64,000 nt of DNA, from positions 1-64,000 of the IMG/VR virus record IMGVR_UViG_3300043567_000498. The stretch is one strand, 5' to 3'. The DNA is from a virus. The notes under the pieces are model-generated. The model was not told the DNA's origin, did not search any database, and saw only the letters and a list, made by a program, of their open reading frames with translations. A program made the translations under genes and the position numbers. This document shows, one piece after another, positions 6,232 to 58,830 of the stretch (the stretch's first letter is position 1; each line of letters starts with the position of its first letter).

Positions 6232-6966
6232 TTAATTTATTTTTTTTCTTTCTTCCCATCTTTTTCTATTTGCTTCACCTATTTTTCTTTTATGTTCTTC
6301 GCTCATTTTTTTACCTTTATTAGGAGATGTTCTACCTTTTGCCGTTTCTTTTAATTTTTGTTTATGTTCTTCACTTCTATTTTTTGCATATTCGCTCAGT
6401 TTTCTTCGATGTTCTTCACTGAAAGGATCCATTTTTTTACCTCTATTCCAAGAACAAGAACTATTTCCCGTATTTGCTTCACTTATTTTTTGTTTATGTT
6501 CTTCACTCATTTCTTTTCCATACATAGGATTATTTTTACCAGTCTTTGATGCACTTAATTTTTTTCTAGTTTCTTCACTACAAACTCTATTTTTACTTGC
6601 TTTACTTAATTTTTTTCTAGTTTCATCTTTACATTTTCTACCTTTACTAAGTTCTCCAATTTTTTTTCTAGTCTCCTCAGAATGTTTATATCCACACATT
6701 CCCTCACCACCATCAGTTCTATTATGAAGAATACCAGTTCCTAAATCTAGTCTACCAAAGACAGCAATCATATACTTCTCGTGCTTGAACGCTTCTTCCT
6801 CTGTTATGTTTTGTTTCAGGAAGATTATTCTGGATTTATCTTTAGGAGCATTAACCCCCTTTAATCTTTTTCTATAAACCCTATCACCATTTCCCTTACC
6901 GACATAATAAGGAGTTCTATCTTCACGCAAATAAGCATAAGTATAAAATCTGTTAAGATTTACCAT
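6232..6966 (-). CDS. GIY-YIG homing endonuclease with NUMOD3 repeats
   Basis: A 244-aa free-standing homing endonuclease. The N-terminal GIY-YIG nuclease is seen as YTYAYLREDRTPYYVGKGNG, where the Y-x-Y and YYVGKG elements replace the classical GIY and YIG, followed by a KHEKYMI helix carrying the catalytic Glu. After NRTDGGEG, residues 90-244 are repeated NUMOD3-type DNA-binding units (HSEETRKKIGELSKG, HKQKISEANTG and similar, at least six copies). It separates thyX from the phoH operon. An exact late promoter and a long inverted repeat lie just before it. Confidence 0.9.
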   Translation of the reverse strand: MVNLNRFYTYAYLREDRTPYYVGKGNGDRVYRKRLKGVNAPKDKSRIIFLKQNITEEEAFKHEKYMIAVFGRLDLGTGILHNRTDGGEGMCGYKHSEETRKKIGELSKGRKCKDETRKKLSKASKNRVCSEETRKKLSASKTGKNNPMYGKEMSEEHKQKISEANTGNSSCSWNRGKKMDPFSEEHRRKLSEYAKNRSEEHKQKLKETAKGRTSPNKGKKMSEEHKRKIGEANRKRWEERKKIN

Positions 6967-8155: not shown

Positions 8156-8184
8156 ATTATACAAAAAAAGAGAGGACTTGTCAA
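8156..8184 (-). promoter_or_regulatory. sigma70-type early promoter of thyX operon
   Basis: TTGACA (8179-8184), 17-bp spacer, TATAAT (8156-8161) on the minus strand. The -35 box is in the loop, and the spacer is the 3' arm plus T-run, of the terminator at 8163-8194. Confidence 0.85.
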
Positions 8185-8194
8185 TCCTCTCTTT
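8163..8194 (-). terminator. Rho-independent terminator of riboswitch operon
   Basis: A perfect 10-bp stem (8167-8176 with 8185-8194) and 8-nt loop, followed by a T-run on the minus strand. It lies 10 nt after the stop of the 28-aa membrane peptide. Confidence 0.82.
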
Positions 8195-8203
8195 AGAAAA
8201 ATA

Positions 8204-8290
8204 TCACTTATAAAGCCACTGAATATACATTGATAAAATAATAGTCAAAAGAACTATTCCGGCACTCATTGAGACTATGAGATTTGCCAT
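8204..8290 (-). CDS. 28-aa single-pass membrane peptide
   Basis: The ORF starts MANLIVSMSAGIVLLTIILS and ends MYIQWLYK: one hydrophobic helix with a short basic C-terminus, suited to an inner-membrane peptide. Its ATG overlaps the stop of the 32-aa gene (TAATG). It is the last gene before the terminator. Translational coupling supports expression; function unknown. Confidence 0.6.
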   Translation of the reverse strand: MANLIVSMSAGIVLLTIILSMYIQWLYK

Positions 8291-8388
8291 TATTTTGCTC
8301 CGATTAGTTGTGCTAATTGTGCTAAATGACGACGCTGTTCTTTTTGTTTTTGTTCTTTGATAAGTTGTAGGAAGTTGAGTTTTTTCAT
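8290..8388 (-). CDS. 32-aa basic helical peptide
   Basis: The ORF reads MKKLNFLQLIKEQKQKEQRR followed by HLAQLAQLIGAK: an amphipathic helix rich in Lys, Gln and Arg. GGAGG lies 8 nt before the ATG, and the ATG overlaps the TGA of the DUF4278 gene. It is the second gene under the putative glutamine riboswitch. Like its upstream neighbour it is Gln-rich. Not recognised. Confidence 0.6.
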   Translation of the reverse strand: MKKLNFLQLIKEQKQKEQRRHLAQLAQLIGAK

Positions 8389-8522
8389 CACTTCGCCTCC
8401 TTTACAAACTTAACCCCACGATAAGTCTCATTATACTGTTGGGGTTGCTGTTGCGCCTGCTGTTGTTGCTGGCGACGAACTTCGGTGTCATAAGAGACAC
8501 CACGATATACGACTTGTGACAT
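8388..8522 (-). CDS. Gln-rich DUF4278 (PirA-like) peptide
   Basis: A 44-aa ORF starting MSQVVYRGVSYD and containing a second YRGVKF near the end. Two YRGV motifs are characteristic of DUF4278, the family that includes the cyanobacterial PII-interacting regulator PirA. Between them is a tract of about 14 residues that is mostly Gln (10 of 44 residues overall are Gln). AAGGAG lies about 9 nt before the ATG, downstream of a leader matching the glutamine aptamer. Known: PirA in Synechocystis is nitrogen-controlled and binds PII. Inferred: this phage peptide may interfere with host nitrogen sensing. Confidence 0.75.
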   Translation of the reverse strand: MSQVVYRGVSYDTEVRRQQQQQAQQQPQQYNETYRGVKFVKEAK

Positions 8523-8548
8523 TAGGTTTTCTCCTTAGTTTTTAGGTT

Positions 8549-8655
8549 AAAGAGCGTTCCTTCAGTCGGCGTTTGCGTTCGCTATTTGCGAATAGCGAAT
8601 GAACGATCCGTTCCGCGTCGGCTTACTTCCGTCTGGATTATTCCAGATGAACGAT
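8549..8655 (-). promoter_or_regulatory. putative glutamine riboswitch (glnA / downstream-peptide type)
   Basis: The minus-strand leader contains, in order: CGTTCATC (8653-8646), a hairpin TCTGGA/TCCAGA, GACGGAAGTAAG (8633-8622), a variable stem region with a perfect 9-bp hairpin (8578-8586 with 8591-8599), and GAAGGAACGC (8563-8554). This order of conserved blocks is that of the cyanobacterial glutamine aptamers glnA and downstream-peptide RNA, where CGTTC pairs with GAACG to form P1. One change from the usual GGAAGUAGG core is seen (GGAAGTAAG). The insert between core and closing strand is long. It lies directly before a short DUF4278 peptide, as in the downstream-peptide class. Confidence 0.72.
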
Positions 8656-8662
8656 ACAATAT

Positions 8663-8691
8663 ATATTACCACAAAATCAAAAAAGTAGCAA
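8663..8691 (-). promoter_or_regulatory. sigma70-type promoter of riboswitch operon
   Basis: TTGCTA (8686-8691), 17-bp spacer, TAATAT (8663-8668) on the minus strand. A start 6-8 nt downstream would place the first transcribed base at the 5' edge of the aptamer. The stretch 8692-8780 holds no gene; it contains an A/T-rich imperfect hairpin (about 8750-8776) that may end transcripts from 9083. Confidence 0.5.
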
Positions 8692-8780
8692 CCGATACTA
8701 AAAATGTATCAGTACGCTACTGTTTTAAAAACCTTAAGGAGCAAAAATTTTGGGGGAATTTTTTTGCCCGATATGGGAAA

Positions 8781-9083
8781 TCACTTTCTCTTTTTCTTTT
8801 CGGGTGCTCTGTATCCCCAAATCTTAGGAGACACTCTTCCATATCCCCAATCAATTTTTGTAACTACATCTGGGCCGAACTTATCATAATACATATCAAA
8901 GATTTTAACTCTTGTACCACGACACAAATCCATATAAGAGTTTCCCTTTAATGTATAAGATACGATATATGCATCATTAGGAAAAGAAGGATCTTTAACC
9001 TGAGCAAGTGATGCGTTTTCAATCAGAATCTCACACCCATAACGAGGAGGAATATCTTTCTTTTCTTCCGGAGTCCATTCCAT
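8781..9083 (-). CDS. conserved cyanophage hypothetical protein
   Basis: A 100-aa protein starting MEWTPEEKKDIPPRYGCEIL. This ATG is chosen because GAGGAG lies 9 nt upstream; a longer reading frame would need a GTG at 9149 inside the previous gene. The middle (DAYIVSYTLKGNSYMDLCRG) and the aromatic segment (DMYYDKFGP) suggest a compact beta-rich fold, and the tail is very basic (PEKKKRK). Not recognised beyond being typical of T4-like cyanophages. It is the last gene of the glutaredoxin operon. Confidence 0.72.
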   Translation of the reverse strand: MEWTPEEKKDIPPRYGCEILIENASLAQVKDPSFPNDAYIVSYTLKGNSYMDLCRGTRVKIFDMYYDKFGPDVVTKIDWGYGRVSPKIWGYRAPEKKKRK

Positions 9084-57378: not shown

Positions 57379-58667
<1,289 letters not shown>

Positions 58668-58830
58668 TTGTTTTAAAAGGGTAAGTATGATTCAGGGGGA
58701 CTGAATAGTTACAAGTATTCCCACGACACCCTCCATCGTGGGTATGAGGGATGCTTTACTTCTCTTGATCCCGGTTGGAGAAGACACTGGGTTTCAGAAT
58801 TGTTACGTTTCTTAACCCGTGTATGTATAT
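58668..58830 (-). promoter_or_regulatory. structured psbA leader
   Basis: About 157 nt of untranslated leader between the promoter and the psbA ATG. It has a 7-bp hairpin CCCACGA/TCGTGGG (about 58718-58740) and a 6-bp hairpin ATTCAG/CTGAAT (about 58690-58708), and no strong Shine-Dalgarno before the ATG. No small ORF was found here. Confidence 0.5.

Follow-up and report, generated by a model that had tools for sequence, protein, structure and literature searches.

The window analyzed here is a stretch of 64,000 nucleotides (nt) of viral DNA (positions 1 to 64,000 of IMG/VR virus record IMGVR_UViG_3300043567_000498, a virus contig of 83,933 bases), and the feature of interest is a leader on its minus strand, at 8555-8653, that precedes a gene for a small DUF4278-like peptide. 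Our analysis indicates that this leader is probably a fused double glutamine-I riboswitch, in which two direct-repeat copies of the aptamer are interlocked. The P3 strand of copy 1 would pair with the P3 strand of copy 2, so that the outer halves form a canonical aptamer and the inner halves form a circularly permuted core. The outer aptamer would comprise P1, a P2 hairpin and loop E, with the second core forming the loop of its P3; the inner core would run in the order GGAACG-GAU-CGUUCA-P2-GACGCAA, with a P1 capped by GAU and a P2 of its own and without loop E. In most of the sampled relatives the P2 loops hold complete small genes, with the start codon in or beside P2. A wider picture, in which two cores are interlocked through one helix, genes serve as P2 loops, passage of the ribosome competes with the ligand, and the nested and DUF4278 proteins are made at opposite glutamine levels, is put forward tentatively, as a reading that we place a little below an even call.

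An earlier note, made from the letters of this DNA, had recognized glutamine-aptamer motifs on the minus strand, and reading of the sequence verified the positions of all of them: CGTTCATC at 8653-8646, the hairpin TCTGGA-ATAA-TCCAGA at 8647-8632, GACGGAAGTAAG at 8633-8622 and GAAGGAACGC at 8563-8554. It had also drawn the distant 5' and 3' halves as one aptamer, which the alignment, covariation and RNAalifold results support. By its motifs the outer aptamer appears as a canonical glutamine-I aptamer, loop E included; it has the three-way junction of P1, P2 and P3 with the conserved core, loop E being identified by sequence only. The Rfam glnA check that the note proposed gave a mixed answer. 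In the Rfam search of the own record, RF01739 scored 36.8 bits at 8605-8655 and 33.1 bits at 8551-8607 (cut-off 35); a local scan by E-value gave 26.9 and 33.1 bits for the two halves, each below 35, and a default gathering-threshold scan of the window listed neither half. The score for a single family is thus borderline; Rfam divides the element into two, and the two adjacent matches indicate that the insert carries another set of aptamer motifs. The variable insert, which the note had described as unusually long, contains a second CGTTCA...GGAACG copy that the note overlooked. The A that it saw instead of the usual second G is present, if the first base of P3 was meant, but co-varies with its pairing partner (A-U 193, G-C 12, G-U 5 and C-G 3 among 215 distinct elements). 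The Downstream-peptide family RF01704, the other class suggested, has no covariance match in 8250-8850 at E up to 5, and glutamine-II is rejected as the class of the leader. The identification as a glutamine-class riboswitch ahead of a DUF4278-like gene is thus upheld, with glutamine-I as its class.

Comparison with other viruses supplied the material for testing the fold. A blastn search with the region matched 52 of 50,697 phage records, which indicates that the element is not due to chance; every carrier is named as a Synechococcus or Prochlorococcus phage, a cyanophage or a marine virus, and the best match is S-SRM01, from a reservoir. Viral contigs were scanned twice for the junction, each scan giving at least 120 stretches, so the element counts based on them are samples. 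Together with the phage loci and the window, the scans provided 262 junctions, of which 7 without a 3' half were dropped and 255 kept. Five of these were excluded because their 5' P3 segment ends in GAA: four belong to ordinary tandems with a plain local hairpin, while the P3 strands of the fifth (L169) could also pair in the fused manner. This left 250 fused elements, 215 of them distinct. The junction pattern misses elements with a reversed first P2 pair, as in 3 of 23 annotated loci (L010, L019 and L025). These 23 annotated phage and marine-virus loci (L003-L025) share, with local variants, the order CGUUCAUCC - P2 - GGACGCAAGUA - AGCCGACU - CGGAACG - GAU - CGUUCAUCC - P2 - GGACGCAA - AAGCCGACU - GAAGGAACG, usually followed by a Shine-Dalgarno (SD) sequence and then by the DUF4278-like gene. 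The main alignment consisted of 62 of the 73 distinct compact elements plus the window, 63 in all.

The shared P3 covaries across cyanophages. In the 250 sampled elements the stretch after GUA of copy 1 is matched by the stretch ahead of GAAGGAACG in copy 2, with combinations such as AGUCG:CGACU, AGUCA:UGACU, GGACGG:CCGCCC, ..ACA:UG.., ..ACG:CG.. and CGCCG..:..CCGACG. At position 8 of P3 the pairs are U-A in 96, G-C in 22 and A-U in 9 of 136. In the class with a 9-nt P3, 817 of 1080 cells are paired, compared to a maximum of 768 in 2000 shuffles, and when the class is reduced to its 24 distinct types the count is 138 of 192 (shuffle maximum 133). For the 6-nt class all 340 of 340 cells are paired (shuffle maximum 339). 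The nested structure of 26 pairs, evaluated on the sequence-only alignment of the 63 compact elements, has 93.7% of its cells paired versus 82.9% in shuffled alignments, 14 pairs changed on both sides versus 8.2, and a covariation score of 0.280 versus 0.083, with slid controls at or below 0.074. None of 500 shuffles attained the observed pairing, double-change count or covariation score. RNAalifold, which was not supplied with a structure, formed both nested P1 stems on the same 63 elements: CGUUC of copy 1 pairs with GAACG of copy 2 (outer P1), and GAACG of copy 1 with CGUUC of copy 2 (inner P1).

The cores can be compared with the known glutamine-I structures, in which glutamine is contacted through C1:G59, G2:C58 and G22 (PMC6698751) and a long-range 23-55 pair accompanies loop E (PMC5393176); residue roles were assigned by position from these two structures. 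Binding of glutamine by the outer core is very likely by homology. The inner core retains the contact positions C1, G2, G22, C58 and G59, and since all of the glutamine contacts are kept, binding there is plausible as well. Among these inner residues the position of G22 was the only one free to vary under the sampling patterns, and the inner C-G columns that hold position 22 are invariant in 63/63 elements, although they lie outside the scan patterns. Two sites joined by one helix would be expected to respond more steeply than a single site.

Many relatives differ from the window in what their P2 loops contain. The length of the inner loop is bimodal, being 100 nt or shorter in 108 of 255 elements and longer than 100 nt, our definition of a long loop, in 147. 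For the outer loops we demanded three P2 pairs and an open reading frame (ORF) of at least 30 codons, which gave 65 with an ORF, 174 with a hairpin and 11 unresolved among the 250 elements; an earlier count with the stop at one fixed place had found outer ORFs in 49 of 255, some of merely 4-11 codons. The outer/inner combinations are hairpin/long (93), hairpin/hairpin (81), ORF/long (44) and ORF/hairpin (21), with the outer loop unresolved in the remaining 11. The window element is of the compact hairpin/hairpin form and carries no nested genes. In 136 of the 147 long inner loops an ORF starts near CGUUCA and stops inside the aptamer: of the 145 starts found, 144 have the ATG 3-5 nt behind CGTTCA, and the stop falls exactly where the last P3 base meets the loop-E GAA (UGA) or AAA (UAA). 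Because the aptamer core encodes their end, most of the nested proteins finish in ..DA(K/N/H/Q)(A/V)D or ..DAND. The inner P2 is retained across the long loops, with 680 of 695 cells paired in 139 sequences (shuffle mean 511, maximum 556), and its strand varies with the protein end, UCUAU mostly going with ..I-D-A, UCCCA mostly with ..W-D-A and UCCUU with ..K/E/R-D-A. Around the outer ORFs, P2 lacks pair 4 in 16 of the 62 cases and pair 5 in 7; this pairing is weaker evidence than that of the inner P2 because the filter had demanded the first three pairs.

The inner nested ORFs evolve as proteins. The ratio of nonsynonymous to synonymous differences per site (pN/pS) is 0.23 over 413 comparable pairs among 129 distinct ORFs and again 0.23 over 92 nearest-neighbor pairs, with pN below pS in 92/92, and changes are most frequent at third codon positions. 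Some nested ORFs are annotated in GenBank as hypothetical proteins, for example PSSM4_169.2 and 169.3. Many of the proteins have a hydrophobic start, as judged by eye, and two cysteines are invariant in 57 aligned inner proteins. Five inner proteins were tested against phage families, of which three match phrog_504, one matches phrog_13397 and one (L148) neither; all 11 of 11 outer proteins match phrog_6471, and the three families are annotated without a known function. A Pfam search with the nested proteins gave nothing over the cut-off. One inner protein is predicted to form a helical hairpin (mean predicted local distance difference test score, pLDDT, 79). Its model has two matches at E <= 0.001 among viral models, both uncharacterized cyanophage proteins; against PDB structures Z is at most 4.1, for a common arrangement, and against PDB sequences the best E is 0.56.

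The gene behind the leader is part of the conserved pattern. An ORF with one to three YRG motifs, DUF4278-like, follows 234 of the 239 fused elements with at least 130 nt of downstream sequence; among the distinct proteins listed, the start lies 28-66 nt past the aptamer. In the remaining 5 elements its place is taken by a small peptide of helical appearance, which in two cases resembles the product of the next gene in the window. The 44-amino-acid (aa) ORF of the window has the two YRGV motifs and the 11/44 glutamines that the earlier note described. The alignment to DUF4278 (PF14105) that it called for gives E 8.7e-4 and 20.1 bits for the window peptide, below the curated cut-off of 25.3, and covers DUF4278 positions 4-56; searching the own record returned no match to DUF4278 at E <= 0.001. 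Among the 33 peptides aligned, which include that of the window, 31 match DUF4278 at E <= 0.01 (best 1.8e-13), so homology to DUF4278 is likely even though the window member itself is under the cut-off. The structural model of the peptide is poor (pLDDT 67, predicted template modeling score 0.25), and PDB sequences gave no match at E <= 1. In the window (8290-8522) the DUF4278-like peptide and a helical KKLNFLQLIKEQ-type peptide are encoded by separate genes, while many relatives (e.g., L031, L045 and L064) appear by eye to have a single protein in which MNTLNLIRKQI... is followed by two YRG motifs, as if the two had been fused.

We propose that high glutamine most likely turns on the DUF4278-like gene, by analogy with gifB and the glutamine riboswitches of Prochlorococcus, and perhaps the next small gene as well. 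Both types of glutamine riboswitch are described as activating expression upon glutamine binding and as linked to DUF4278 genes (PMC6316151). With the nested start in or beside P2 and the inner stop in the aptamer core, we infer that aptamer folding should be mutually exclusive with translation of the nested gene, in which case the nested protein would be made at low glutamine and the DUF4278 protein at high glutamine. Of 174 distinct leaders, 59 continue with CUC directly after P1, and examples among them show stems of 7-9 base pairs of the CUCUUUA:UAAGGAG type; no consensus structure emerged across all 174 for the interval from P1 to the start codon. Because such a stem over the SD sequence is compatible with P1, it does not reveal in which direction the switch works.

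A number of results weigh against the interlocked fold or the use that we propose for it. RNAalifold did not add P3 on the 63 elements, and two of the eight P3 positions are mostly mismatched, largely as C-A or A-C (unpaired in 52/62 and 42/54 of the rows with letters). The 6-nt class becomes uninformative on its four distinct types, where 486 of 2000 shuffles reach the observed value. The outer P1 is paired in 99.4% of cells and almost invariant, and the inner P1 strands are invariant; the search patterns and the extraction fixed these strands, and P1 therefore provides no covariation. In the window, forcing both P1s and the shared P3 gives -24.4 kcal/mol and forcing the tandem P1s -27.9 kcal/mol; the unconstrained fold, at -29.5 kcal/mol, has the nested P1s. 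The modeled pairing probability is about 0.2 for the outer P1, 0.77 for the inner P1 and 0.007 for the P3 pair inspected. These modeled energies do not decide between the nested and tandem arrangements. The lack of loop E in the inner core makes glutamine binding there uncertain. Eleven of the 147 long inner loops lack an ORF in the standard frame: relative to the usual stop, the frame ends at -16 in four, at -29 in one and at -51 in one and runs past it in two (L003, which is S-SRM01, and L126), one stops after 20 codons (L236), and L088 and L169 have no start within 13 nt. Finally, the stem over the SD sequence by itself leaves an ON switch unexplained, and a sigma-70 consensus promoter was sought immediately upstream of the element and not found. 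Separately, a scan for G-C swapped P1 strands returned one locus only, whose sequence is a chance match.

The energies bear on the possibility that the leader is an ordinary tandem of two independent glutamine-I aptamers that form separate P1 stems and act together pseudo-cooperatively. Such arrangements are well represented (157 doublets and 4 triplets in the survey of PMC9481103), the tandem fold is competitive in energy in the window, and Rfam scores the halves separately both there and in some relatives. True tandems, however, retain a local P3 and GAA, as in 11 of 19 bacterial and archaeal loci, judged by eye, and 4 of 255 viral junctions. In the window element the copies are not each complete with a local P3 and loop E of their own: copy 1 lacks the loop-E 3' GAA and a local P3, copy 2 lacks AGUA, and the P3 strands of the two copies covary with each other, which is contrary to a tandem. 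We consider an ordinary tandem unlikely. A single aptamer with a big P3 insert, serving as a spacer or gene carrier around a degenerate inner core that does not bind, has a better claim, since the outer aptamer has all the canonical elements and the inner core is without loop E. It fits less well with the unselected inner C-G at position 22, invariant over 63 elements, or with an inner P2 kept by covariation even around long ORF-bearing loops, and we regard it as the most serious of the alternatives while still doubtful.

The nested ORFs might instead be ordinary genes situated by chance between the aptamer halves, without any regulatory connection. The window has no nested ORF, and in 81 of 250 elements both loops are hairpins, as this would allow; but starts and stops sit at fixed aptamer places in 136/147 cases, P2 closes around the nested ORFs, and none was found among the 159 local-P3 aptamers of the collected loci (156 with the P1 5' strand within 60 nt). 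Chance placement is in our view rather improbable, slightly more so than a non-binding inner core. A different idea concerns the downstream product: the earlier note had called DUF4278 the family of PirA and conjectured a PII-interfering peptide set by host glutamine. A small DUF4278-like protein under a glutamine aptamer would fit this. The main text of the PirA paper, on the other hand, does not use the term DUF4278 and states that PirA is absent from marine picocyanobacteria (PMC8092223), whereas DUF4278 has been linked to IF17/gifB and, in picocyanobacteria, to genes under glutamine riboswitches (PMC6316151; PMC11288750), as the N-terminal part of IF17 (PMC6316151), an inactivator of glutamine synthetase (PMC6316151, PMC11288750). 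The family assignment to PirA is thus unsupported, and the PII-interfering role is a conjecture that we find very improbable. The fused double riboswitch is the reading we retain.

Regarding the origin of the fused form, ordinary single glutamine-I aptamers are common in viral contigs (at least 120 in a scan), and some with a P3 of GGGAAACC or GGGAAACU stand ahead of DUF4278-like genes (L287, L299, L302, L316 and L326). In L287 and L299 the encoded peptide agrees at every residue with the one that follows the fused element of L213 and L229, respectively, which makes the fused form look like an aptamer set into the P3 loop of another. It looks as if it arose either by insertion of an aptamer copy in the P3 loop or by unequal duplication with strand exchange. 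Among the matches listed, many single glutamine-I aptamers of viral contigs (L285-L399) precede tiny, dissimilar ORFs, and the control of very small phage proteins by glutamine may be more widespread. The last four blastn matches (H49-H52) are limited to 25-31 nt at the inner hairpin, in places annotated as tRNA-Ala. This inner P2 hairpin, TTCGCTATT-CGCA-AATAGCGAA (8578-8599 in the window), or close variants of it recur in inner and sometimes outer loops; the outer loops of L007 and L221 carry this type, and its surroundings match annotated tRNA-Ala genes in S-H9-1 and S-RIM50.

One scan of 84,980 bacterial and archaeal species genomes matched 19 loci, which by eye are 11 ordinary tandems (mostly SAR86 and SAR92), 6 fused elements (L267, L271, L278, L279, L283 and L284) and 2 chance-like matches (L275 and L281). 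Two of the six fused-type loci, L278 and L284, were compared with cyanophages and both are cyanophage-like: L284 has patchy cyanophage matches, and L278 is 98.1% identical to cyanophage P-TIM40 across 8 kb, so that its 188-kb contig (NODE_6 of the Nonlabens xiamenensis assembly) looks like a contaminating phage genome. A glutamine-family Rfam match at the cut-off was obtained for 4 of 20 ORF-bearing and 10 of 20 compact loci, and 6 of the 20 compact relatives have an RF01739 match spanning the element from end to end, at 38-47 bits. The nested and fused build may be the reason why searches by family under-report such elements. In 3 of the 40 loci scanned, a manA RNA is located no more than about 1 kb from the glutamine element (L012 1438-1623, L015 515-700 and L023 1408-1605).

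Table 1. Features of the leader and its flanks in the window (all on the minus strand)
Feature	Position	Basis or remark
Terminator-like hairpin upstream of the leader	8691..8713	Probably ends the preceding unit
Outer P1 5' strand CGUUC	8649..8653	Pairs with 8555-8559; RNAalifold on 63 elements
Outer P2 hairpin	8632..8647	Covariation and RNAalifold; loop holds an ORF in 65/250 sampled elements
Outer core CGGAAGUA	8624..8631	Position 22 and loop-E 5' side; from sequence
Shared P3 5' strand AGCCGACG (copy 1)	8616..8623	Covaries with 8564-8571
Inner P1 5' strand GAACG (copy 1)	8609..8613	Hairpin with 8601-8605 across GAU loop
Inner P1 3' strand CGUUC (copy 2)	8601..8605	Folding and RNAalifold
Inner P2 hairpin UUCGCUAUU-CGCA-AAUAGCGAA	8578..8599	Covariation; long loop instead in 146/250 sampled elements, nearly all of these with an ORF
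Inner core CGCAAA	8572..8577	Position-22 G retained, loop-E motif absent
Shared P3 3' strand CGCCGACU (copy 2)	8564..8571	Covariation
Loop-E 3' side GAAG and outer P1 3' strand GAACG	8555..8563	Stop codons of relatives' nested ORFs overlap
Possible expression platform	8531..8554	CUCUUUA (8548-8554) complementary to UAAGGAG (8531-8537), over the ribosome-binding site
DUF4278-like 44-aa peptide gene (phrog_5049)	8388..8522	
33-aa peptide gene MKKLNFLQLIKEQ...	8290..8391	Overlaps the DUF4278-like gene

Elsewhere on the minus strand of the window, a perfect TTGACA-17-TATAAT overlaps a 12-pair terminator-like hairpin that follows the small-peptide genes (8156-8194), and a 244-aa ORF with repeated SEEHRRKLSE-like motifs (6232-6966) has what we take to be a resemblance to GIY-YIG homing endonucleases. 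Rfam-type matches also include a Group I intron at 57716-57988 (94.6 bits) and a PhotoRC-II RNA at 58707-58794 (49.2 bits).

If correct, the fold represents an unusual design for a two-site RNA sensor, combining strand exchange between copies with circular permutation, and the placement of a gene inside a sensor would couple sensing to translation. The element points to host glutamine as a cue that many cyanophages sense while infecting, and isolated phages (P-SSM4, P-HM1, S-SSM7 and S-PM2) offer RNAs that can be tested. Tandem glutamine aptamers (PMC2864571, PMC9481103) and glutamine riboswitches in cyanophages and other marine phages were already known (S-CREM1 in PMC9964418, a methylophage in PMC9004378, and PMC9602691). 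For S-CREM1 the paper and the record give one 99-nt glnA element of 44.0 bits, which we read from its sequence as the compact fused form taken for a single aptamer. We found no earlier description of the interlocked fold or of in-loop genes in the literature searched, supplements being outside its scope.

Among known systems, the closest is the glutamine-I riboswitch (RF01739), with which the phage outer aptamer shares P1, P2, the core, loop E, the terminal GAAGGAACG and the ligand-contact positions. The phage element differs in having a circularly permuted second core in the P3 loop and P2 loops that may hold genes, and its named carriers are cyanophages or marine viruses. Group I introns carry ORFs in peripheral loops, and they likewise place a protein gene in a loop of a structured RNA; the phage element, in contrast, is a ligand sensor in a leader and does not splice. 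The association of glutamine-I with DUF4278 genes is the same in cyanobacteria (PMC6316151). Tandem glutamine riboswitches also have two copies per leader (PMC2864571; PMC9481103), but these fold separately, whereas the phage copies would exchange strands through the shared P3. Glutamine-II (RF01704) likewise stands ahead of small DUF4278 proteins in marine picocyanobacteria (PMC6316151), shares the GACGCA core with many of the phage copies and reaches or just exceeds the cut-off in 4 of the 40 loci scanned; it differs in its pseudoknot fold and has no match in the window. IF17 (GifB), whose C-terminal part inhibits glutamine synthetase, also combines a DUF4278 part with a glutamine riboswitch, and that part is described as dispensable for function yet promoting stability (PMC6316151), while the 44-aa phage peptide consists of DUF4278 only.
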